NCBI GenBank assembly: GCA_009937505.1
Contig: JAACFJ010000018.1
Coordinates: 1-58,334, forward strand
Length of the DNA stretch: 58,334 bases
Reading direction: 5' to 3'
Source of the DNA: Gammaproteobacteria bacterium
Lineage (GTDB): Bacteria; Pseudomonadota; Gammaproteobacteria; Steroidobacterales; Woeseiaceae
This document shows positions 26,329-55,175 of the stretch, piece by piece. The position numbers and the translations under genes are program-made. Numbering within the stretch: position 1 is the stretch's first letter; every line of letters starts with the position of its first letter. The notes under the pieces are model-generated. The model was given only the letters and a program-made list of their open reading frames with translations. It had not been told where the DNA came from and made no database searches.

Positions 26329-27933
26329 TCACATCCCGGAGTAGTTCGGGCCCCCGCCGTCGCAGGTCTTGCAGTGAATGCAGTTGCTGGGGCTGACCTC
26401 GAACCGCGGCTGGCCGTCTTTTTCCACGATCTCGTAGACGCCCGCCGGGCAGTAACGCTGCGCCGGTTCGTCGTATTTCGGCAGGTTGTATTCCACCGGC
26501 ACCGACTCGTCCCTGAGCTTCAGGTGCGACGGTTGGTCCTCTTCATGATTCGTGCTCGAGAGGAACACGGAGGAGAGCCGGTCGAAACTGATGACGCCAT
26601 CCGGTTTCGGGTAGTCGATGGGTTTGGCCTTGGCCGCTTCGTCGAACTGCTCGTGGTCCGGATCCCTGTTGCGCCACGTGAACGGCATCTTGCCGAAAAC
26701 GATGTTCTGGTCGATGAACGTGAATGCAGAGCCCCAGAACGTGCCCAGCTTGTGCAGACCGGGCCCGAAATTCCGCGCGCTGTGAAGTTCCTTGTGCACC
26801 CATGACGTCCGGACAGCGTCGCTGTAGGAATCCAGCACGCCGTGCCCCGCATCGCCGGACGCCAGTGCCTCGTGCACGCTCTCGGCCGCCAGCATGCCGG
26901 TCTTCATCGCCGTATGCGCGCCCTTGATCTTTATGCCATTCAGGAAACCGGCGCCACAGCCGACGAGCATGCCGCCCGGGAAGACGAGCTTGGGCAGCGA
27001 CTGCAATCCGCCCTTGTTGACCGCGCGCGCGCCGTAGGCAACCCGGGTGCCACCCTCGAGGTATTGCCGGATGCGCGGATGATGCTTCCAGCGCTGGAAT
27101 TCGTCGAAGGGCGCAAGATGGGGATTGCGGTAACTGAGCGCGATGATGAAGCCGAGATACACCTGGTTGCCGGATGCGTGATAGAGAAAGCCGCCGCCCT
27201 CGGTGTGGCTGTCGAGAGGCCAGCCCATAGAGTGCACCACGAGGCCTTCATCGTGCTTGTCAGGCTCGACCTCCCAGATTTCCTTGAATCCGATGCCGTA
27301 ATGCTGCGGGTCGGCGTCGGCACGCAGATCGAACCTCTGCATCAACTCTTCGCTGAGATTACCGCGCACGCCTTCCGAAAATATCGTGTACTTGCCCAGC
27401 AGTTCATAGCCCGGCTGGTAGCTCGGCTTTTTTTCGCCGTCCTTGCCGACGCCGAGGTCGCTGGTGACTACACCCGTGACACGGCCATCATCGTCGTAAA
27501 GCACTTCCGCGGCTGCAAAACCGGGGAAGATGTTGACGCCCGCATTTTCCGCCTGCTCGCCCAGCCACTGGCACAGGCGGCCCAGGCTGATGATGTAATT
27601 GCCCTCGTTATGCATGGGCCGCGGCACGAACGCCCCGGGGACCCTGATGCCGCCCGATTCACTCGTCAGGTAATGAATGTCATCGCCCTTGACCGCCGTC
27701 GTCACGGGTGCGCCCCTGTCCCGCCAGTCGGGGTATAGCTCATCCAGGGCCGTGGGCTCGAACACGTTGCCCGACAGGATGTGTGCGCCGATCTCGGAAC
27801 CCTTTTCGACCACCACGACCGACAGGCTGTCGTCGAGCTGCATAAGCCGGCATGCCGCGGCAAGGCCGGCCGGCCCGCCGCCGATGATAACGACGTCGAA
27901 TTCCATGGACTCGCGTTCGATTGATTCAGTCAT
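26329..27933 (-). CDS. Electron transfer flavoprotein-ubiquinone oxidoreductase
   Basis: Membrane-associated FAD/4Fe-4S enzyme passing electrons from acyl-CoA dehydrogenases via ETF to ubiquinone. From the ATG at 27933 the product is 534 residues: FAD motif DVVIIGGGPAGLAAA, GAHILSGNVFEP, and PKLVFPGGMLVGCGAGFLNGIKIKG. The 4Fe-4S ligands are Cys495 (CPAGVYE), Cys518, Cys521 and Cys524 (NCIHCKTCD). The family normally has about 15 residues (IKDPTQNINWV-type) between CKTCD and the terminal GGGPNY; here CKTCD joins GGGPNYSGM directly, an apparent in-frame deletion. ETF subunits are not in the window; the acyl-CoA dehydrogenases nearby are plausible electron donors. Confidence 0.95.
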   Translation of the reverse strand: MTESIERESMEFDVVIIGGGPAGLAAACRLMQLDDSLSVVVVEKGSEIGAHILSGNVFEPTALDELYPDWRDRGAPVTTAVKGDDIHYLTSESGGIRVPGAFVPRPMHNEGNYIISLGRLCQWLGEQAENAGVNIFPGFAAAEVLYDDDGRVTGVVTSDLGVGKDGEKKPSYQPGYELLGKYTIFSEGVRGNLSEELMQRFDLRADADPQHYGIGFKEIWEVEPDKHDEGLVVHSMGWPLDSHTEGGGFLYHASGNQVYLGFIIALSYRNPHLAPFDEFQRWKHHPRIRQYLEGGTRVAYGARAVNKGGLQSLPKLVFPGGMLVGCGAGFLNGIKIKGAHTAMKTGMLAAESVHEALASGDAGHGVLDSYSDAVRTSWVHKELHSARNFGPGLHKLGTFWGSAFTFIDQNIVFGKMPFTWRNRDPDHEQFDEAAKAKPIDYPKPDGVISFDRLSSVFLSSTNHEEDQPSHLKLRDESVPVEYNLPKYDEPAQRYCPAGVYEIVEKDGQPRFEVSPSNCIHCKTCDGGGPNYSGM

Positions 27934-28012
27934 GATTGTCCGTTGTTCCTGATGTTGGCTGGCGGTCGCCGCCGACGGCGCGTCTGGCGACTGCGAATGA
28001 CGCATTGTAACC

Positions 28013-29146
28013 TTGACGGTCACGTCCTCACAGAGACCGCGGGCCATCGCTTCATTGAATATTCGCGACGCTTACGAGCAGCACCTGTTGCAGCACGGTC
28101 ACGTGCGTGATCCGTCTCAGGCGCGCATCGTCGAGCTGCTCGCCGATCTGCAGCAGCGCCTGCTGACGGCGCCGCCGCCAAAACGGGGGCTCGCGAAGCT
28201 CCTGTCGCGCGACCGGAATTCTGTTCCCGGGGTTACCGGCCTGTACCTCTGGGGCGGCGTAGGCCGGGGCAAGACTTTTCTGATGGACCTTTTCTTCGAG
28301 ACGCTCGCGCTCGAATCGAAGCGACGCGTCCACTTTCATCGCATCATGAAAGACGTGCACGAGCGGCTCGGGGCACTGGGTGATATCGAGGATCCGCTGG
28401 CTGCGGTCGCCCGCGACATGGCCGCGGAGGCTCGTGTACTCTGCTTCGACGAGTTCTTCGTCAGCGATATTGGCGACGCGATGATACTGGGGCGCCTGCT
28501 GCACGGTCTTTTCGAGCGCGGCGTAACGCTGGTCGCCACCTCAAACACGCGCCCCGACGACCTGTACCGAGACGGCCTGCAGCGGCAACGCTTTATTCCG
28601 GCCATAGAAGCACTAAACCGACAGACGCGGGTCGTCGAGCTCACCGGCGACACGGATTACCGGCTGAAGCTCCTGCAGCAGGCGGGCACGTACCTTACGC
28701 CCGATGACGGTTCGGCGCAGACCAGGCTTCGCGAGTTTTTCCGGGAGTCCGCCTCGAGCCAGGTACGGGAGGACCACGAACTCGACATCAACGGCCGCAA
28801 TCTGAGGACCCGCCGCTGCGCAAAGGGGATCGCGTGGTTCGATTTCCTCGAGTTGTGTGACGGGCCGCGCAGCCAGGCCGACTACATCGAAATCGCACGC
28901 TGGTACCCCACGATCATCGTCTCGGGCATCCCCGTGCTCGATGAACTGCGAGAGGACCAGGCGCGCCGGTTCATCGCCCTCGTTGACGAATTCTACGACC
29001 GCCGCGTCAAGCTCATCGTGTCCGCCGAACGGCCCACGGACGAGCTTTACGCGGGGAAACGCCTGCGTTTCGAGTTCGAAAGAACGGTCAGCCGGCTGGT
29101 TGAAATGCAGTCGCTCGAGTACCTGCACCTGCCACACCTTGCCTGA
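28013..29146 (+). CDS. zapE: Cell division ATPase ZapE (AFG1-like)
   Basis: P-loop ATPase of the AFG1/ZapE family, associated with the Z ring in E. coli. The 377-residue protein has Walker A GVGRGKTFLMDLFF, the Walker B region LCFDEFFVSDIGDAMILGRLL, and the conserved VATSNTRPDDLYRDGLQRQRFIPAI. The C-terminal FERTVSRLVEMQSLEYL is typical. No ATG is available early on; TTG at 28013 or 28055 is used. It is divergent from ETF-QO. Confidence 0.93.
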   Translation: MTVTSSQRPRAIASLNIRDAYEQHLLQHGHVRDPSQARIVELLADLQQRLLTAPPPKRGLAKLLSRDRNSVPGVTGLYLWGGVGRGKTFLMDLFFETLALESKRRVHFHRIMKDVHERLGALGDIEDPLAAVARDMAAEARVLCFDEFFVSDIGDAMILGRLLHGLFERGVTLVATSNTRPDDLYRDGLQRQRFIPAIEALNRQTRVVELTGDTDYRLKLLQQAGTYLTPDDGSAQTRLREFFRESASSQVREDHELDINGRNLRTRRCAKGIAWFDFLELCDGPRSQADYIEIARWYPTIIVSGIPVLDELREDQARRFIALVDEFYDRRVKLIVSAERPTDELYAGKRLRFEFERTVSRLVEMQSLEYLHLPHLA

Positions 29147-36339: not shown

Positions 36340-37089
36340 CTAATCGTCGACACGGCCGCCGTCGACGGCCACGCCCGTACCGCTTACGAATACGGCATCG
36401 TCGCTCGCGAGGAACAATACGACCTTCGCGACATCGACCGGCTCGCCGAGCCGTTTTGCGGCAGAACTCGAAATACAGTAATCACGGAGTGTCTTGTCTT
36501 TGCGAAACACCTCGCGGCTGTCGGGAGTCATGATCGCCCCGGGCTGAACATGGTTCGCCGTGATCCCGAAGCTCCCGATCTCGGCCGCCAGCGCGCGTGA
36601 GATTGCAGCGAGGTCCTGCTCTGCCCTTTTGCTCTGCTCCCTCGCATTGGCGGCGAACACGCTGCGCAGAAAACCCATGTTGATGATGCGCCCCGCGGGA
36701 CTTTTCTTTAGGTACGGCAGCGCCGATCGGCACATTGCCATAATGAGTTCTGCACGCTTGCGCAGCAGTTCGTCCAGCCCCGCTCCGTCCTCGCCGATCG
36801 GCACGTCCGGTTTCAGCGGGAACTCGTTGACCAGGATATCCAGAGTGCCGAGCTTTTCGGCCGCGTCCTCTACCAGCGCCGGGATGCTGCCCGGTTCGTT
36901 GAGTTCCGCCGGGTAACCCTGTATGCCTCGGACCGACGCGAAATGCTGGTCGACGCCGCTATTCGGCGTGTCGACAGCGAGAACTTCCGCGCCGTGCTTG
37001 ATGAGCGTCCTCGCGGCGGCCTCGCCAATGCCCCCCGCGGCACTCGTCACCACGGCCTTCATTCCGTATAGCCGCAATGCTTCGGCCAT
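36340..37089 (-). CDS. Short-chain dehydrogenase/reductase-like protein without catalytic Tyr
   Basis: The 249-residue protein has SDR architecture: [17 protein letters not shown] at the N-terminus, VAVDGG at the C-terminus, and a [11 protein letters not shown] segment. Two usual catalytic features are changed: the NNAG motif reads VNEF, and the YxxxK position reads REQSK, so the tyrosine is an arginine. The preceding serine is not evident either. It may be a non-catalytic or substrate-binding member, or use other chemistry. The gene is 6 nt after the acyl-CoA ligase start-side neighbour's stop (37096), suggesting co-transcription with acyl-CoA metabolism genes. Confidence 0.75.
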
Positions 37090-37095
37090 GTGCGC

Positions 37096-41646: not shown

Positions 41647-43140
41647 ATGATGTCACGCTATAACAATATCCTGGAGACCGTGGGCGGGACGCCGATCGTG
41701 AGACTGAACCGTATCGCGCCCGAACACGTCAACCTGTACGTGAAGATCGAGTCCTTCAATCCGATGGGCTCGGTCAAGGATCGCCTTGCGCTGAGCGTCA
41801 TCGAAGACGCCGAACAGAGTGGAACGCTCAGCCCCGGACAGACCGTCATCGAGGCGACCAGCGGCAATACGGGCATCGGTCTTGCGATGGTCTGCGCCTG
41901 CAAGGGCTATCCGCTCGTCGTAACAATGGCCGAGAGTTTCAGCGTTGAGCGGCGCAAGCTGATGCGCTTCCTGGGCGCCCGGGTCGTGCTGACTCCCGCC
42001 GCGCTCAAGGGCAGCGGAATGCTGGCCAAGGCGGTCGAACTGGCCGAGGAACACGGCTGGTTCCTGGTGCGCCAGTTCGAAAATGAGGCAAATGCAAACG
42101 CCCATTCGCGCACGACGGCACCCGAAATCCTCGAAGCATTCTCCGACAGGAAACTCGACTACTGGGTTACCGGTTACGGCACGGGCGGTACGCTCAAGGG
42201 CGTGTCGCGGGTGTTGCGGGAGGCAAGCCCGGACACGCGGGTCATCGTCTGCGAGCCGGACAATTCGCCCATCCTGGGCAGCGGCATACCGCAGGAACGC
42301 CTGGACGATGGCGCGCCGAAAGACAGCCACCCGCTGTTCCGCCCGCACCTGATGCAGGGCTGGACTCCGGACTTCATACCGAAGCTGACCGAAGATGCCG
42401 TCGACGCAAAATACATCGATGAAATTCTGCCGATCAGCGGCGACGACGCCATGAGGTTGTCGCGATCGCTGGCGACGGAAGAGGGGATATTCGTGGGTGT
42501 TTCGGGCGGCGCGACCCTGGCGGGCGCCATTGCCGTCGCGGAAAAAGCGGAGCGCGGCACAAACATTCTCTGCATGCTCCCCGACACGGGCGAGCGCTAC
42601 CTGAGCACGCCGTTGTTCGAGGACATCCCGGCGGACATGACCGCTAAAGAGCAGGAGATCTCACGCTCGACGCCGAACTACCGTTTCGACACGCCGCCGC
42701 CCGCGCCACCTGCCGAGGCGGAAGAGGACGACGAGGCCGGGGCACCGGTGGATGCGCTGGCGTTCCTCGACGAGGCGATTCACGATCCGAACAACCCGGT
42801 CGTGTTATTTGCGCTGGAGTGGTGCGAATTCTGCTGGTCGGTACGCAAGATGTTTGCGGAGTACGAAATCCCGTACCGCTCCATCGACCTCGACTCCGTC
42901 GAATACCAGCAGGACAACAAGGGAGGCAACGTCCGGGCCGCGCTTCTGGAGCGCACCGGCCTCAAGACCATTCCGCAAATTTACATGGGCGGCGAGCACG
43001 TCGGAGGCGCGACCGAGCTGTTCGATGCCTGCAAGGATGGCACTATGGCCAGGCTGCTGGATCAGTCGAACGTTTCGTGGAACACGGCGGTAGACAGGGA
43101 CCCTTACGCCTTCCTTCCGGGCTGGCTGCACGCACGCTGA
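41647..43140 (+). CDS. Cysteine synthase fused to a glutaredoxin domain
   Basis: The 497-residue protein has a PLP-dependent O-acetylserine sulfhydrylase/cystathionine beta-synthase fold (1-about 325) with Lys44 in NPMGSVKDRLALS, EATSGNTGIGLAM and YGTGGTLKGVSRVL, ending LPDTGERYLSTPLFEDI. An acidic/Pro/Ala linker (about 345-370) leads to a glutaredoxin domain (about 375-475): VVLFALEWCEFCWSV with Cys393-x2-Cys396, TIPQIYMGGEHVGGATEL. The fusion suggests linked sulfur assimilation and thiol reduction, for instance reducing the synthase or persulfides. Both halves look intact. An O-acylserine from a MetX-type serine acyltransferase (as in the broken gene at 1-1069) would be a possible substrate, but this is speculative. 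Confidence 0.9.
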   Translation: MMSRYNNILETVGGTPIVRLNRIAPEHVNLYVKIESFNPMGSVKDRLALSVIEDAEQSGTLSPGQTVIEATSGNTGIGLAMVCACKGYPLVVTMAESFSVERRKLMRFLGARVVLTPAALKGSGMLAKAVELAEEHGWFLVRQFENEANANAHSRTTAPEILEAFSDRKLDYWVTGYGTGGTLKGVSRVLREASPDTRVIVCEPDNSPILGSGIPQERLDDGAPKDSHPLFRPHLMQGWTPDFIPKLTEDAVDAKYIDEILPISGDDAMRLSRSLATEEGIFVGVSGGATLAGAIAVAEKAERGTNILCMLPDTGERYLSTPLFEDIPADMTAKEQEISRSTPNYRFDTPPPAPPAEAEEDDEAGAPVDALAFLDEAIHDPNNPVVLFALEWCEFCWSVRKMFAEYEIPYRSIDLDSVEYQQDNKGGNVRAALLERTGLKTIPQIYMGGEHVGGATELFDACKDGTMARLLDQSNVSWNTAVDRDPYAFLPGWLHAR

Positions 43141-45788: not shown

Positions 45789-46991
45789 ATGGACGCGACG
45801 TTGAGTGATGAGGACCTTGCCTTCCGCGAGGAAATCCGCGCCGTATTTAGAGACGAATTCCCGGAAGACATACGCCGCAAGCGAGAAAAGGGTGTTCCCA
45901 TGGGGCGCGGGGACCTCGTCCGCTTCCAGCAGTGGCTGCACGAACACGGCTGGGCCGGGATGAACTGGCCCGTCGAGTACGGCGGTACCGGCTGGACGCC
46001 GGTGCAGAAACACATCTTCGCGATCGAAATGGCGGAAGCGAACGCCCCGCCCATCGTGCCATTCGGGCTGAGCATGGTCGGGCCCGTCGTGTATACCTTC
46101 GGCAACGAGGAGCAGCAGAAGCGCTTCCTCCCGGACATACTGGCCAGCAAGGTCTGGTGGTGCCAGGGCTACTCGGAGCCGGGCGCCGGTTCGGATCTCG
46201 CGTCACTGAAGACGCGTGCGGACCTGGCCGGCAACCACTATGTCGTGAACGGTACCAAGACGTGGACCACGCTCGGCCAGCACGCAGACTGGATATTCAT
46301 ACTCGCACGAACCAGTACCGACGTCGCCCGGCGCCAGGAAGGCATCAGCTTCCTGCTCGTCGACATGAAGACGCCCGGCGTCACCGTGAACCCGATCATC
46401 ACGATTGAGGGCGACCACGAAGTCAACGAAGTGCACTTCGAAGACGTCAATGTGCCCGTCGAGAACCTCGTCGGCGAAGAAGGCAAGGGCTGGACCTACG
46501 GGAAGGTGCTGCTGCAGCACGAGCGCGCCAATATTGCAGCCGTCGCGATCTCCAAGTACCGGCTGCGCAATCTCAGGGAGCAAACGACGAAACCCGTTCG
46601 CGGCGCCACGCCGCTCGGCGAGGATCGCAATTTCATGCGCAAGGTCGCGGCTGTCGAAGTGGACCTCAGGGCGCTGGAGTACACGGAGCTGCGCACGCTC
46701 GCTGCGGTGCAGTCCGGAAAGGCGCCGGGACCGGAATCCTCGATACTCAAGGTCAAGGGAACAGAGATCCAGCAGGCTATCGATACGCTTTACCTGGAAG
46801 CCGCGGGGTACTACGCGCTGCCTTACGTGCAGGAGCAGTACACGCTGGATTCCGATCCGGCGGACTGGGTCGGTGACGTCGCCGAAACGCAGACCTCGCT
46901 GAAATACTTCAATTTCCGAAAGGCATCGATCTACGGCGGCTCCAACGAAATCCAGAAGAACATCATCGCCAAGCACGTGCTCGGCCTTTAG
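45789..46991 (+). CDS. Acyl-CoA dehydrogenase (large subunit-like of a paired enzyme)
   Basis: FAD enzyme for the first beta-oxidation step. The 400-residue product has YSEPGAGSDLASLKTRA, VNGTKTWTTLGQHADW, and VEVDLRALEYTELRTL, and ends IYGGSNEIQKNIIAKHVLGL. The organisation with an immediately following second dehydrogenase resembles pimeloyl-CoA dehydrogenase PimC/PimD-type pairs, where the two form a heteromer; this is inference. A TAGGAG ribosome-binding site precedes the ATG. The next gene starts 9 nt later. Confidence 0.88.
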   Translation: MDATLSDEDLAFREEIRAVFRDEFPEDIRRKREKGVPMGRGDLVRFQQWLHEHGWAGMNWPVEYGGTGWTPVQKHIFAIEMAEANAPPIVPFGLSMVGPVVYTFGNEEQQKRFLPDILASKVWWCQGYSEPGAGSDLASLKTRADLAGNHYVVNGTKTWTTLGQHADWIFILARTSTDVARRQEGISFLLVDMKTPGVTVNPIITIEGDHEVNEVHFEDVNVPVENLVGEEGKGWTYGKVLLQHERANIAAVAISKYRLRNLREQTTKPVRGATPLGEDRNFMRKVAAVEVDLRALEYTELRTLAAVQSGKAPGPESSILKVKGTEIQQAIDTLYLEAAGYYALPYVQEQYTLDSDPADWVGDVAETQTSLKYFNFRKASIYGGSNEIQKNIIAKHVLGL

Positions 46992-47000
46992 GAAACAGAC

Positions 47001-48851
47001 ATGGACTTCTCGTTCAACGAAATACAGTCGATGCTCGACGACAGCGTCGAGAAATTCATCGCCAACGACTACGACTTCGAGACGCGCCAGAAATACGCCG
47101 CGAGCAAGCGAGGCTACAGCCCGGAAGTCTGGCAAACCTTTGCCGAACTCGGCTGGACATCGGTGCCGTTCAGTGAGGATGACGGCGGCTTCGGCGGCGG
47201 TCCGACCGACCTGATGGTCCTTATGCTGCGCTTTGGCAAGGGCCTCGTCGTCGAGCCTTACCTGGCCAATATCGTCCTCGCGGGCGGCGTTTTGCGGCGC
47301 GCGGCCAGCGCGGAACAGAAAGAAAGGTGGCTACAACCGATCATCGCCGGTGAGCTGCAGTCCGCTCTCGCGTACACGGAGCCACAAAGTCGCTACGATA
47401 TCGCCGACATCAGGACCACGGCTACGGCGGACGGCGACGGCTGGGTACTCAGTGGCGAGAAAGGTGTCGTTTTCAACGGCGGCAATGCCGAGCTGCTGAT
47501 CGTTGCCGCCAGGATTTCTGGCGCGCAGGACGATGAAGACGGCATCACGCTGTTTGCCGTGCCCGCCGACAGCGATGGCCTCGATGTCAGGTCTTATGCC
47601 ACGGTGGATGGGCAACAGGCGGCGGAGATCAGTCTCGATAACGTCGCCGTGGATGGCGCGGGCGTTATCGGCGAGCCGGGCAAGGGTCTCGCCGCGCTGG
47701 ATGCCGCCATCGACGATGCGACGCTGGCCGTCTGCGCGGAAGCCGTCGGCATCATGCAGATCATGACGGACAAGACGGTCGAGTACTCGAAGAACCGCAT
47801 GCAGTTCGGCGTGCCGATCGGTAGCTTCCAGGCTTTGCAGCACCGCATGGTCGACATGTTCACCGACTGCGAACAGAGCTACTCGCTGTTGCTGTGGGCG
47901 ACGATGCTTGCCGCACAGGACGACGCCGATGCGAAACACGCCATGCACTCGATCAAATACCAGGTCGGCACCGTGGGGCGCAAGGTCGGCCAGGAAGCGG
48001 TGCAGATCCATGGCGGCATGGGCGTCAGCTGGGAAGTCGATATCGCGCACTACTTCAAGCGCCTGACGACGATCGACCAGATTCTCGGCAATGCCGACTG
48101 GCATCCGCAGGCCCTGATCGACTTCTTTGCCGCCAAACAGGAGGTTTTGTGGCTCACCACGCTGATGCTTGACCTCGGCGGCACGGTGGTTCTGTATCGC
48201 TTGTTCGGCAAAGCGGGACTGCAGGTCGCCATCGCGACGGCGATCATCCTCGCGAACCTGCAAGGGCCCAAGCTGACCATCATTTTCGGGCTCGAAACCA
48301 GCCTCGGCGTGATCTTCTACTCGAGCATCTTTTTCGCCACCGACGTGCTGTCGGAAAACTACGGCAAGCACGAAGCCGCGCGAGCCGTCTGGATGGGCTT
48401 CACGGTCAGCGTCATCGTGCTGGTCATGATGAGCCTGGGGCTCATGTACCTGCCGAGCACGAACCCCAAGACGGCCGCTTTTTCGCAGGACATACAGGAC
48501 GCGTTTTCAACCATCCTCGATTTCTCGCCGCGCTTCGTGTTCGGTTCGTTACTCGCCTACCTGATCAGCCAGCGTTTCGACGTCTGGGCGTTCCACAAGA
48601 TCAAGGCGTGGACGGGCGAACGCTGGCTGTGGCTGCGGAATAACGGCTCGACCATGGCCTCCCAGGCCCTCGACACCACGATCTATTCGTTGGTCGTCTG
48701 GTGGGGCACCGTGGATCTCCGGACCGCTCTCGCCCTCGGCGGCGCCAAATACCTGTTCAAACTGGTAATCGCGGCCATCGACACCATATTCATTTACTGG
48801 GCGCGCAGCAGTTTCCTGAAACATCACCCGGAAAAACCGCTGACCGCCTGA
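47001..48851 (+). CDS. Acyl-CoA dehydrogenase fused in frame to a YhhQ/VUT-type transporter
   Basis: A single 616-residue frame. Residues 1-about 380 are an acyl-CoA dehydrogenase, PimD-like: FSFNEIQSMLDDSVEKFI, ELGWTSVPFSEDDGGFGGGP, AYTEPQSRYDIADIRTTA, IHGGMGVSWEVDIAHYFKRL. Residues about 381-616 are a six-helix-type membrane domain of the YhhQ (queuosine precursor transporter, VUT) family: VLYRLFGKAGLQVAIATAII, SSIFFATDVLSENYGKHEAAR, LAYLISQRFDVWAF and LWLRNNGSTMASQALDTTIY. A queuosine gene pair (queA, tgt) exists elsewhere in the window. At the junction, AGGAGG (48139-48144) precedes a TTG (48147), so the transporter might also be translated separately. The fusion may be natural or caused by loss of a short stop-containing stretch. 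Confidence 0.85.
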   Translation: MDFSFNEIQSMLDDSVEKFIANDYDFETRQKYAASKRGYSPEVWQTFAELGWTSVPFSEDDGGFGGGPTDLMVLMLRFGKGLVVEPYLANIVLAGGVLRRAASAEQKERWLQPIIAGELQSALAYTEPQSRYDIADIRTTATADGDGWVLSGEKGVVFNGGNAELLIVAARISGAQDDEDGITLFAVPADSDGLDVRSYATVDGQQAAEISLDNVAVDGAGVIGEPGKGLAALDAAIDDATLAVCAEAVGIMQIMTDKTVEYSKNRMQFGVPIGSFQALQHRMVDMFTDCEQSYSLLLWATMLAAQDDADAKHAMHSIKYQVGTVGRKVGQEAVQIHGGMGVSWEVDIAHYFKRLTTIDQILGNADWHPQALIDFFAAKQEVLWLTTLMLDLGGTVVLYRLFGKAGLQVAIATAIILANLQGPKLTIIFGLETSLGVIFYSSIFFATDVLSENYGKHEAARAVWMGFTVSVIVLVMMSLGLMYLPSTNPKTAAFSQDIQDAFSTILDFSPRFVFGSLLAYLISQRFDVWAFHKIKAWTGERWLWLRNNGSTMASQALDTTIYSLVVWWGTVDLRTALALGGAKYLFKLVIAAIDTIFIYWARSSFLKHHPEKPLTA

Positions 48852-48864
48852 TAAAATTTGAATC

Positions 48865-49668
48865 ATGCAGCCTTCCGGCGTCATCACGATCACCACGGAC
48901 TTCGGCCACAAGGGCCCCTTCACGGCCGTCATGAAAGGCGTGATCATAGGGCGATTCCCGGAAGCGAAGATCATCGACCTGATCCACGATATCCCTGCGC
49001 AATGGCCTCCGGAAGCCGGCTTCTGGGTCAGTCGCGCGTACAGGTACTTCCCCAAAGGCACGGTGCACCTGGCCATCGTGGACCCGGGCGTGGGCACGGA
49101 GCGCGACATACTGCTCGTGCAACACGACTGGCACTATTTCCTGGCGCCCGATAACGGCCTGCTCTCGCCAATCCTGGATGATGCAGAAGACACCCGGGTC
49201 TTCAAGCTCGACCTGAACTGCTTCAAGCGACTGGGGCTCGACGAGCCCAGTGCCACGTTCCACGGCCGGGACATTTTTGCCCCGATTGCCGCGGACATCG
49301 CATCCGGGAGGACCAACCCCGTGTCCGTCGGTATCCCGACCTACGAGTGGATCCCGGGCTGGGTCGACGACCCGGACGTCTCGACGGGCAAAGTGAGCGG
49401 CGTCATCATTACCGTCGATACCTTCGGCAATCTCATCAGCAACATCGACCGTAAACTGATCGAAGGTTTCCGGCAGCCTGTCGTGACCGTGGCCGGCCAC
49501 GAATTCCCGATGAAGACGACCTACGGCAGAGTGCAACCTGGCGAGTACCTGGCCCTGATCAACTCGTTCGACGTCATCGAGGTAGCCAGGGCCGAGGGCA
49601 ATGCCGCGGAAGGGCTCGGCCTGGAGCGCGGCGCACCGATCGTGATCAGCGACGGGATCGAAACCTGA
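48865..49668 (+). CDS. SAM hydroxide adenosyltransferase / SAM hydrolase family protein (DUF62)
   Basis: The 267-residue protein has ITITTDFGHKGPFTAVMKG, VDPGVGTERDI, FLAPDNGLLSPIL, FHGRDIFAPIAADIASG and TVDTFGNLISNI, which are the core motifs of the SAM-dependent chlorinase/fluorinase/hydroxide adenosyltransferase family. Such proteins convert SAM to adenosine and methionine in the hydroxide-type members; a fluorinase or chlorinase role is not indicated. It starts 13 nt after the transporter fusion, so it may be co-transcribed. Confidence 0.88.
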   Translation: MQPSGVITITTDFGHKGPFTAVMKGVIIGRFPEAKIIDLIHDIPAQWPPEAGFWVSRAYRYFPKGTVHLAIVDPGVGTERDILLVQHDWHYFLAPDNGLLSPILDDAEDTRVFKLDLNCFKRLGLDEPSATFHGRDIFAPIAADIASGRTNPVSVGIPTYEWIPGWVDDPDVSTGKVSGVIITVDTFGNLISNIDRKLIEGFRQPVVTVAGHEFPMKTTYGRVQPGEYLALINSFDVIEVARAEGNAAEGLGLERGAPIVISDGIET

Positions 49669-49742
49669 TTTGGCAGGGATCGCGTGGGCTGAATTTCATC
49701 TTCCGCTCATTGTCCAAATTCTGACACCATCAACAGTTGCCG

Positions 49743-51662
49743 ATGAGCAGGAAATCAGCATTGTTCGACATTCGAAAGTCAGTCTGCTTGCTGCTGCTCG
49801 CAGCCGCGCCTTCTGCGCATGGCGATGTCAGCTACGTCGTGAACGGGCTTGACGATACGCTCTCCGCCAATGTGCTGAGCCACGTTGACACTGTGCAATT
49901 CGGCCCGCGCGCCCGATTGCGCCCGCGTGACCACGAAAAAGTCATTGACAAGGCGATCGAAGATGCTCGGGCGGCCCTGCGGCCCTATGGCTACTATGCG
50001 CCCGACATTTCGGTGCGCATCATCGAGAAGCAGGACCGGTCCGCGATCGTCGAACTGACCGTCGAGGCCGGCCCGCCGATCCGCATCGCGAGCGTCGACG
50101 TAGGTGCTGTCGGACCCGGGGCCACCGACCGCCTGATTTCTGCCTGGCTGCGAGCATGGCCGCTTGGTGAGGGCGCTGTCCTCGACCAGACGATCTGGGA
50201 GAATCAGAAACAAGTCGCCATCGAGACCGCAAATTCTCGCGGCTACCTCGCTGCAGAATTCACCGAGCACGTGATCGAACTGGATCTCGAAGAAAACACG
50301 GCAACGATTGCGCTCATGTTCGACACGGGGCCGCGCTACGTCATGGGTGACGTCGCCTACAGCGGCCATGCGATAAAGCCCGGCATCCTGGAATACATCC
50401 CGCGTTTCGAAAAAGGCGATCCGTACACTGCGCGGCTCGTGAGCCGGTTGCGCACCGATCTTTGGAAGACGGGCTACTTCGACGACGTGACGGTACTTGA
50501 AACTGAACGGCCGGACCTGGATCCGCCAGCCGTCGATTTCGAAGTACGTCTCGGGACGGAAACCCGAAACCACTATTCCGGCGCGCTAGGCTGGGGCAAC
50601 GACACGGGCATACGACTGCAGGCGAACTACAGCCGCCACCCCATGTCCGCCAACGGCGACCGAGTCGATGTCGGCATCGGCTACCAGGAACTCGATGACC
50701 AGTTCACGTTGCGCAGCCGGTACCGCAGGCCGCGCATCGGACGGGCCAGGCAGTGGTGGGATGCGGAATTCACGCTACGCTTCGAAAATCAGGATCTCGA
50801 GGTGAAGCGCGACGAAGAGGACGAGGACTTCATTACGCTGGCAAACGGCGACCTCGACGAACGTCACCTCCGTTTCGGGCGACTGAAGCTCAAAAACCTG
50901 AAAGGCGGTGAAGCCCAGCGTTTCACCACTCCGTTCGTGCAGTTCCTGAATTCCGACCAGCGCTTCGACCTTCTGGACACCACGCCGGACGATCCGACGA
51001 CGAGAGTCAGCGATCCCGCCCTCGAGGGCCGGTTGCGGACCATCGAGAACGCGTTCTCGGTCGGTATCGATTACGAAGTCGTCGATGTGCAGGGCCGCGC
51101 GTTCGAGACCTTCGGGCGGCGCGATCGCGCCTGGATCTTCCATTCGGACAAGGCGTTCGGCTCGACGGTCGAATTTACCCAGTTCTACGCGGCAACGCGG
51201 CGCAGTTATGTGCTCGGTGATCGCCTGAAGTTCCACGTGCGCGGCGAGGTCGGTTACACCGACGCTGTTGTCGACCAATTCGAACTGGATATTGGCGGTC
51301 AGCCGCTGAACCTGTCGTTCACGACACTGCCGAACTTCTACCGATTCAAAGCCGGCGGCAGCATGAGCGTACGCGGCTATGGATTCGAACGGCTCTCGAA
51401 CAACGACATCGGTTCGAACCACATCATTACAGCAAGCGCCGAGGCCGAGTACCGTTTCCTCGATTCCTGGTCCGGTGCCGCATTCGCGGATATCGGCAAT
51501 GCTTTCAATAACTGGGATGACCCCGATCTCAAGCGGGGCATCGGCATTGGCATCCGCTGGTATTCATTCGCCGGTGAAATCCGTGTCGATATCGCCCAGG
51601 CGATCGACTTCGAGGGCAAGCCCATACGCTACCACCTGACGATCGGGACGCCACTGCTGTGA
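49743..51662 (+). CDS. tamA: Outer membrane translocation and assembly module protein TamA
   Basis: Omp85-family barrel that with TamB supports outer membrane biogenesis. The 639-residue product has a signal peptide (ATG at 49743; LLLLAAAPSAHGDVSY), three POTRA domains (about 25-300), and a C-terminal barrel of the D15 type with the RGYGFERLSNNDIGSNH-like motif. The family's conserved lid segment reads SVRGYGFERLS, and the final strand ends YHLTIGTPLL. The stop overlaps the tamB GTG start (GTGA, 4 nt). Confidence 0.93.
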   Translation: MSRKSALFDIRKSVCLLLLAAAPSAHGDVSYVVNGLDDTLSANVLSHVDTVQFGPRARLRPRDHEKVIDKAIEDARAALRPYGYYAPDISVRIIEKQDRSAIVELTVEAGPPIRIASVDVGAVGPGATDRLISAWLRAWPLGEGAVLDQTIWENQKQVAIETANSRGYLAAEFTEHVIELDLEENTATIALMFDTGPRYVMGDVAYSGHAIKPGILEYIPRFEKGDPYTARLVSRLRTDLWKTGYFDDVTVLETERPDLDPPAVDFEVRLGTETRNHYSGALGWGNDTGIRLQANYSRHPMSANGDRVDVGIGYQELDDQFTLRSRYRRPRIGRARQWWDAEFTLRFENQDLEVKRDEEDEDFITLANGDLDERHLRFGRLKLKNLKGGEAQRFTTPFVQFLNSDQRFDLLDTTPDDPTTRVSDPALEGRLRTIENAFSVGIDYEVVDVQGRAFETFGRRDRAWIFHSDKAFGSTVEFTQFYAATRRSYVLGDRLKFHVRGEVGYTDAVVDQFELDIGGQPLNLSFTTLPNFYRFKAGGSMSVRGYGFERLSNNDIGSNHIITASAEAEYRFLDSWSGAAFADIGNAFNNWDDPDLKRGIGIGIRWYSFAGEIRVDIAQAIDFEGKPIRYHLTIGTPLL

Positions 51663-54600
51663 GCCTGCGCCGCGTACTGCTGCTCCTGGCCGCCACCCCC
51701 GTCGCATTTGCCGCCGCCGCGTGGTTCTGGCTGCTGCACACGGAACCAGGCGCGCAATGGCTGTGGAAACAGGCGGAATCGGCCACCGGCGGCGCCCTGT
51801 CGGCCACCAGCGTCTCGGGTAGTTTGGGCGGGGGCGTCACTCTGCACAGCTTGAGCTTCGAGAACGATGCTGTCGACATCGATGTCAGCAATATCCGTCT
51901 TACCGCCCGGGTGGCGGTACTGCCCGTGCGCATCTTTGTGACAGAGGCCCACGCCTCCGGATTCAGTCTTCGAATCCCCGACAGAGAAGAGAACAGAGAC
52001 GGCAGCACCGATCTGCACGAAATATTCGCGAAGCTGCAGCTGCCTTTCGAGATCGTCGTAGAAGCACTCGACATCGAGGACGCAAGCTTCGACGGCTTCG
52101 TCGGTGAGGAATACCTGAGCTTCGGTTTCGCGTCGATCACGGGCGGCTGGAAGGACGCGATCCGCATCGACCGCCTGCAGGCCCGGACCCCGTATTACGA
52201 CCTCGACGGCACCGGGCAGATGTGGCTCCACGGCAGGAACGAGATCACCGCCGACGTCGAACGCCGTCAGCGCCGCGGTTCGCGGCTACATCGACGAGCT
52301 GGCGCTGCAGGCCAGCACCGTTGAACCCGGAGCAACGGCGGCGGGCCACCTGCGCGGGCTGGGCTCCGAACTGAGCTGGGACCTCGAGGTGCGTGCGCCG
52401 GCGGTGTCGGTACCGGTGAAAGAAGGGATGGCCGAAATGCCGCCTGTCTCCCTGTCGGCAAATGCGCGAGGCGACACGCAGGCCCTGGCTGCCGAAGCCG
52501 ACGTCGAATTCTCCGGCACCGACATGCACGTCGGTACAGTTGCCGATTACGACATTCAATCCGGCGCAGTCTCGGCGGAACTGGACTGGCGTAACGCTCA
52601 CTGGCCGGTGGGTCACACCGAACCGCAGGTAAATAGCCGCTCGGGCAAAGTCGCGGTCGGCGGCTCGATCGACAGCTGGACCGTGGCAGGAACGCTCGAG
52701 CTCGACGTGCCGCAGCTGCCACCGGGCACGTTCACGATCGACGGCGACGGTAACCGTGATGAGGCCCAGGTGGAGATTATCGAGGGCGATATCCTCGGCG
52801 GCACGATCAGCGGCAATGCCCGATACAGCTGGCGGCAATCGCGGCCGTTCAACGCAACACTCGAACTGGACGAGATCGAGACGGGCACCGCGTTTCCCGA
52901 CTGGCCGGCCCGACTGAGCGGCAAGCTCGCGATGTCGGGGCAACAGCAACCACTTCGAATTACCGCCACGTTGAGGGATGTGCACGGGCAGTTTCGCGAC
53001 AGGCCCATGTTCGCCGACGGCGGCATCGAGTACGAAGCCGCTGCATTCAGCGTCGATGATCTCGAGTTACGGCACGGCGGAGCCAGTGCCCGTCTCGATG
53101 GTCGGGTTTACGCGGCAACCGGCCTGGCTTACGACATCAGCATCGACGAACTCGGCCATTACCTCGATGGAGCCCAGGGCGAGCTGTCGGCCAAAGGCAG
53201 GATTTCACTCGCGCCGGGCGCTATTTTCCTGCGCATCGATGCGTCCGCAGACGCCCTGGCCTATCGCGGCTTCCAGGTGGAAGGCCTGAGAGTCGAGGAT
53301 CGCGGCGACGGCGCGCGCGTGCTCGACGCCGAGATTACGGCCGGGCAGGTCTCCTACAAGGATTTCCAGGCGAACGACGTGGTGCTGGCCGCTGCCATGG
53401 GGCGCGAGTCGCAGTCCGTCGACCTGGACTTCAACGCCCACGGGCTGCACGCAGGGCTGTCGCTACGGGGCATCCTCGACGACTGGGATGATCCATCGGC
53501 GTGGGATGGCGAGATCTCGAGGCTGGACATGAACCACAGTGACTTCAACGCACAACTGGAACAGGCGGCCCCGTTGCAGTTGAGCAAAAGTCGCGCCCAC
53601 ATCGAGCGAGTTTGCCTGACCGGCGCGCGCGGCATCGGCCTGTGCGCGGACGGCAACTGGGACGCAGGCAGAGGCTTCGACCTCGCGGCCAGCTTGTCAT
53701 CGGTGCCCGTCGACCTGGTCAACACCTTCGTCGACACGCGGCTCGAATTCGACCAGGTCGTCAGCGGCGAATTCAGCTGGAACGCAGGGCCGGACGGCCA
53801 GTCAGCCGGACGCGCCGATCTCAGGATGGCCGCGGGGACCGTCGCCAGCATCGACGATCCGGAGCGCACGCTGACGACCGGCCCGTCGAGGCTGGGCTTC
53901 GACCTGCGTGGCGACGACCTGCGCGGCGGCATCATCGACGTCCCGCTGCCGGGTCAAGGCCAGGTTGCCGCCGAGTTCCAGTTGCTTGACGTTGTGGGGA
54001 CGGGGGCAGCGGGCATCGGCGGCAGTATCGACGTCGATCTCGCCGACATCGGGATCATCCTGCCGTTCGTGCCGGTGCTCGACGACGCAAAAGGCACCTT
54101 GCGCGCCGACATCGGCCTCGGCGGAACGCTGGACGCACCCATGGTAACGGGCTCTGTCGCGCTGGATGACGGCAGCGTGAGTTACCTGCCCATCGGCCTC
54201 AGGATTGACGAGATCCAGCTGCGCAGCGAGCTGCAGGAGCAAGGCGGCATCGAGGTGATGGGCTCGTTTCTCGCCGGTGAAGGACGCGGGCAGATTCGGA
54301 CGCGTGCCGGTCAACGGCAAACCGTGGCTGCCGGGCTCGAAGTCACGCTTCGGGGTCGCAATCTGACGCTCATCGACGTGCCCGACGTAAAGGCGATCGC
54401 GAATACCGATGTGCAGATCGAGTTCGACGGCAACGAACTCGAGGTCAACGGCACACTGGCTTTCCCGCGTGCGCGAATTGTGCCCAGTAGCCTGGGCACC
54501 AGCCGCGTCTACGAAAGCGAGGACGTCGTTATCGTTACGGGGGAACTGCCGGAAGAGCCGACGGACGATACAGAACGCGCCGACCTGCGGATCCTCGGGT

Positions 54601-55175
54601 CGCTCGACGTCTCGCTCGGCGACGACGTCATCGTCGATCTCGGCGTCGTCGAGACTTCCGTCACGGGCAACACCGTGCTTGCCTGGAGTGGCGATCCGGT
54701 ACCGATGGCAAACGGCCAGTTCGATGTAGACGGCCAGATCCTGGTATTCGGACAAAGGCTGGAGATCACCGAAGGGGCAGTGCAGTTCCCCGACGTTCCC
54801 GCCGACGATCCCTACCTCCGCATCCGCGCGGAACGGGAAATCTTCGGCAATACCCAGGTGCGCCGCGCCGGTGTGCTTGTCGCGGGATCGGTCTCGCGCC
54901 CGACGATCGAGGCGTACACGACGCCTGTGACGACAGAGGAGCGTGCACTGACCTTGCTGGTAACCGGCAGCGACTTCGACTACGAGAGAGGTATCGGTGC
55001 GGTGGACTTCGGCACCTACATTGCGCCGCGCGTCTACGCCAGTTACGGCATCGGACTGTTCGACAACGAGAACGTCATCCGTGTCCGCTATGACCTGCAG
55101 CGTGGTTTCGGCGTTACCCTGACCTCCGGCCAGAAAGAGTCGGGCGCCGACCTGAGCTTCCGCTTCGAGAACTGA
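51659..55175 (+). pseudogene. tamB: Translocation and assembly module protein TamB, frameshifted
   Basis: Large inner-membrane-anchored periplasmic protein forming a hydrophobic groove for lipid transport, partner of TamA. The first part (GTG at 51659 to about 52257) has an N-terminal anchor (VLLLLAATPVAFAAAAWFWLL) and the typical AMxxWxxxTGxxLSATSVSG-like stretch, ending NEITADVE. The homologous text then continues in another frame (from about 52260: NAVSAAVRGYIDELALQAS) to 55175, with the C-terminal DUF490 domain (GVVLVAGSVSRPTIEAYTTP and GIGLFDNENVIRVRYDL). The frame changes near 52255-52262 without a good alternative, so a small indel or short deletion is inferred. Downstream of it, a frame of 928 residues from 52389 is open to the end. 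Overlaps tamA by 4 nt. Confidence 0.85.

Follow-up and report, generated by a model that had tools for sequence, protein, structure and literature searches.

Two genes that adjoin in relatives, for an acyl-CoA dehydrogenase and a queuosine-precursor-type transporter, read as one open frame in a single Woeseiaceae draft contig, probably through an assembly error

The DNA analysed here, called the window throughout, is a whole contig of 58,334 nucleotides (C167) from the draft genome of a gammaproteobacterium of the family Woeseiaceae (G000; 3.09 Mb in 191 contigs, 88% complete). At positions 47001-48851 its + strand carries an open reading frame of 616 codons with an ATG start. The first part, 47001-48104 (368 codons, residues 1-368), corresponds by profile matches and comparison with relatives to a small-subunit-like acyl-CoA dehydrogenase (ACAD) of the PimD-like kind. 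Pfam recognizes the three-domain architecture Acyl-CoA_dh_N/M/1 (PF02771/PF02770/PF00441) over residues 7-356, with all three domains above their gathering scores. The model of the pimeloyl-CoA dehydrogenase small subunit, TIGR03203, matches residues 2-370 with 407.2 bits and does not reach its equivalog cut-off of 652.7. The likeness to PimD-type small subunits lies in this alignment and in the position behind a second ACAD gene, and the difference lies in the score and in the absence of the C-terminal six residues. The second part, 48105-48851 on the + strand (residues 369-616), is a transporter of the Vut_1/TIGR00697 (YhhQ-like) family, which begins here at its third native residue (PQALIDFF...) and ends at its own stop. 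Curated cut-offs are exceeded across the domain, by Vut_1 (PF02592) at residues 435-601 (152.6 against a gathering score of 27.2) and by a full-length match to the TIGR00697 queuosine precursor transporter model (164.1 bits against 50.95); Pfam and NCBIfam together place the transporter at residues 403-603. The earlier note, which had read an ACAD and a YhhQ/VUT-type transporter in one frame, is borne out by these scores. Proteins of the Vut_1 family bring queuosine precursors into the cell through the inner membrane; here the name queuosine-precursor-type is given by homology only, and transport of preQ0/preQ1 or queuine is putative. The transporter match is the only one in the source genome, and neither a second copy nor an unfused variant was found there.

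The open frame lies within a conserved group of genes (45789-49668). Directly upstream, a second, large-subunit-like ACAD gene (45789-46991, + strand) is a constant partner, present in all 27 loci whose sequence reaches far enough upstream. This arrangement resembles the PimC/PimD pairing; ACAD pairs of this kind oxidise acyl-CoA thioesters using FAD. Directly downstream, a SAM hydroxide adenosyltransferase-like gene with SAM_HAT_N/C domains (48865-49668, + strand) is the usual neighbor, present in 24 of the 29 loci with enough downstream sequence. The resulting order of large ACAD, small ACAD, transporter and SAM_HAT gene is shared with other Woeseiaceae, for example in CAMYJB010000001.1 and JAACFE010000010.1, where the proteins are 89-97% identical to those of the window. 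In those operons, in contrast to the window, the small ACAD and the transporter are two genes, kept apart by a stop and a short spacer. The window transporter is colinear with the separate Woeseiaceae transporter genes and 97% identical to the closest of them; the difference is that the start codon and the second residue are absent from the window contig. Such adjacency across the family suggests co-transcription rather than a joint protein. Elsewhere in the window, the open frame 41647-43140 combines a pyridoxal-phosphate enzyme domain (PALP, residues 9-313) with a C-terminal glutaredoxin domain (385-452).

We compared the locus with the two closest relatives of the source genome, G035 and G094, both of which are drafts. 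Over 3.7 kb aligned with G035 the single internal indel is a gap of 34 bp in the window, at 48104/48105, and the identical gap appears against G094. The missing bases comprise the last six codons and the stop of the ACAD gene, the spacer, and the transporter's start codon with the one after it. In relatives the ACAD ends in ...GNADWHLDKLAA-stop or similar, with the C-terminus LDRLAS or LDRLAG, and the transporter begins with M(I/F)P(Q)xxVxFFAANQE(L)LWLTT or similar; in the window ...GNADWH, without those six codons and stop, is followed at once by PQALIDFFAAKQEVLWLTT. As its first two codons fall inside the lost segment, the native transporter start is absent from the contig. No run of N marks the joint; the window and 20 other stretches of the source genome hold no N at all, and G094 holds a 34-N run. 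The suspicion of a lost stop in the earlier note was right, in that the ACAD stop of relatives lies within the missing bases. The same note had looked to separate genes in relatives together with an insertion in the window as the sign of a spurious fusion; the separate genes with a stop are there, and the lesion is a 34-bp absence and not an insertion. Since 34 is 1 modulo 3, which fits the frame offset in G035, the loss brings the two frames into register, at a cost of about two transporter residues and six C-terminal ACAD residues. So small a cost and a matching register are also what would favor a deletion that is real in the strain, giving one protein of 616 residues with the dehydrogenase tethered to the membrane via the transporter; such an event would be recent and either neutral or mildly harmful.

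The state of the gene pair was compared across relatives. Once loci identical in their first 200 nt had been reduced to one each, there were 88 distinct transporter loci, 56 of which have a small ACAD at most 400 nt upstream; the other 32 lack an ACAD neighbor, in some cases where a contig end interrupts the locus and in others in more distant groups. In 55 of these 56 loci there are two genes with a stop between them, and the stop of the ACAD lies 8-76 nt ahead of the first matching transporter residue; the sole fused locus is that of the window. The transporter itself is present in 36 of 60 relatives searched. A search with the full-length fused protein covered 73 congeneric genomes, the window's own included, and the fusion was absent from the other 72. 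One of them, G079, had been reported with an open frame of 636 and was rejected as a second fusion, since a stop precedes the transporter once the sequence is inspected; open-frame figures from the congeneric search appear to run across stops that were read through. In 396 genomes of the order, 18 matches besides the window cover most of the query, and each has one in-frame stop; no other fusion occurs among 80 GTDB r220 loci. A gene-fusion family calls for the fusion in at least one independent genome, and these searches yielded none. A literature search, covering titles and abstract openings, turned up no description of an ACAD-transporter fusion. As the two genes adjoin across the family, their co-location is not due to chance, and the single frame is a peculiarity of the window contig. 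Judged by the genomes compared, the fusion is not a family trait, whether the lesion is an artefact or a real deletion, and the apparent fusion of the earlier note is not supported as a biological one.

That note had also proposed that the transporter may be translated separately from a Shine-Dalgarno-like AGGAGG just before a TTG. The motif is present at 48139-48144, with the TTG at 48147 (AGGAGG-TT-TTG, 48139-48149, + strand), and initiation at 48147 would retain most of the first membrane segment. However, a spacing of 2 nt is short for an initiation site, and the conserved FFAANQE segment would be lost. Comparison with relatives shows that the stretch encodes a conserved Q-E-V-L in the transporter N-terminus: relatives carry the same codons (Asn-Gln-Glu-x-Leu-Trp) inside the transporter, about 15 codons past their own start. 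AGGAGG occurs at this site in 13 of 112 loci (window and duplicates counted), and the commonest codons of relatives there are AACCAGGAG (33 of 112 loci) and AACCAGGAA (22 of 112). The hexamer lies in the codons for the conserved Gln-Glu and the Val after it and is not an inherited ribosome site, and a separate transporter product driven from this internal start seems very improbable.

Lesions of the same type were sought in the window and in six other stretches of the source genome (C6, C7, C14, C185, C61 and C128; 112 kb), compared with G035 and G094. Five further sites lack bases on which both relatives agree, which gives six deletions of 34-52 bp in all; a pair of gaps at C6:7397-7410 (24 and 25 bp), where the alignment is poor, is not counted among them. 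Three of the five lie in the window. At 26359-26361 (about 26360) the ETF-QO gene (26329-28047, - strand) lacks 45 bp, a deletion private to this assembly that removes 15 codons directly behind the iron-sulphur motif CIHCKTCD; the pig ETF-QO continues CKTCDIKDPS at this point, and the Pfam match in the window stops at profile position 83 of 104. At 37090-37093 (about 37091), just upstream of the start of an SDR gene (36340-37089, - strand), 41 bp are missing and with them a ribosome-site-like sequence. At 52262/52263 a private loss of 41 bp shifts the frame of the TamB gene, which is split into the open frames 51659-52324 and 52389-55175; the TamA frame ahead of it (49737-51662) is open. Outside the window, 44 bp are missing at C128:4199, where another ACAD is split into two frames, and 52 bp at C6:6616, where the apparent start codon of a gene is lost that is, going by its translation, presumably metallo-hydrolase-like. 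No private deletion of this kind turned up in the four stretches C7, C14, C185 and C61 (77 kb). G094 also carries short inverted-repeat elements (matches of about 30-65 bp on both strands) in dozens of dispersed copies on many contigs, which were matched from C14, C7 and C128 of the source genome; matches in G035 are far fewer.

In about 124 kb aligned three ways, the source genome has six private deletions. G094 has two, one of 80 bp and another of 74 bp in which one flank is poor, and G035 has a single one of 35 bp, whose flank falls just short of the threshold. These are small numbers, and when clean flanks are required they become five, one and zero. The excess concerns lesions that break conserved genes: conserved coding sequence is damaged at four of the six sites (the ETF-QO motif, TamB, the ACAD on C128 and the ACAD-transporter locus), and a ribosome site or start codon is lost at the other two. 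Microhomology at the six joints is 0-2 bp. Site-specific or repeat-mediated deletion was considered and rejected, given this and the lack of a shared motif by eye. A two-frame test for general decay found 2 of 243 G094 open frames and 2 of 149 G035 open frames split in the source-genome stretches, and, in reverse, 7 of 219 source-genome frames split in G094 and 3 of 148 in G035, both reverse counts including the fused frame of the window. Several of these rows are overlapping frames of one place on both strands, and in the forward direction the test, with its identity threshold of 78%, failed to pick up the breaks in TamB and on C128, which makes it weak evidence either way.

Codon changes bear on the age of the lesion. 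Those private to the window transporter number 17 synonymous to 1 non-synonymous (13:2 in G094 and 42:2 in G035), and this synonymous excess means that the lesion is either recent or artificial. Until very recently the transporter has been under constraint, as expected of a normal separate gene. Together with the fact that both halves are open, the ratio is also consistent with a real deletion, and an intact transporter frame is equally expected of a real, tolerated fusion.

Six similar losses without end repeats, each of which hits a gene or its start, are more easily explained by loss in assembly than by independent recent deletions in one free-living cell. We consider it likely that two ordinary neighboring genes have been run together in one draft genome and that the absence of the 34 bp is an assembly or consensus error. 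The ACAD and the transporter would then be, as in the conserved operon of the Woeseiaceae, separate adjacent genes. The ACAD end, the stop, the spacer and the transporter start codon would have been lost at the joint of assembled pieces, as at the other sites of this genome, leaving the two frames in register as one. In the cell two proteins would be made separately, a dehydrogenase in the cytoplasm and a transporter in the membrane. The absence of the bases and the two-gene state of relatives are observed, and the artefactual origin is what we infer from them. Several points stand against an artefact: the relatives, which are also drafts, have one or two such lesions each; a k-mer assembler would not ordinarily join sequences that do not overlap, and the joint bears no run of N; and 77 kb of the compared source-genome stretches are free of such private deletions. 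A deletion that is real in the strain is nevertheless unlikely, in view of the similar private lesions that break other conserved genes of the same assembly and of the 72 other congeneric genomes searched, none of which has the fusion.

A bifunctional fusion maintained by selection, in which acyl-CoA oxidation would be coupled to the uptake of queuosine precursors, could draw on the adjacency of the genes across the family, which makes shared regulation or function possible. The fusion is seen in one draft contig only, we know of no biochemical link between the two activities, and we regard this reading as exceedingly improbable. It is rather doubtful that a very recent real deletion produced a translated, membrane-anchored ACAD, with the C-terminus of the small subunit leading straight into the first membrane segment of the transporter; if it did, the locus would be a natural snapshot of operon neighbors turning into one protein.

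The case also carries a caution, as two well-scoring domains can appear cleanly fused, at full length and in frame, on a single draft-metagenome contig when no relative has such a fusion. Most of the matter is settled by setting the intergenic stretch beside that of close relatives and by looking for the same type of lesion across the assembly. What is worth keeping for the biology of the family is the conserved neighborhood of an ACAD pair, a queuosine-precursor-type transporter and a SAM_HAT gene.
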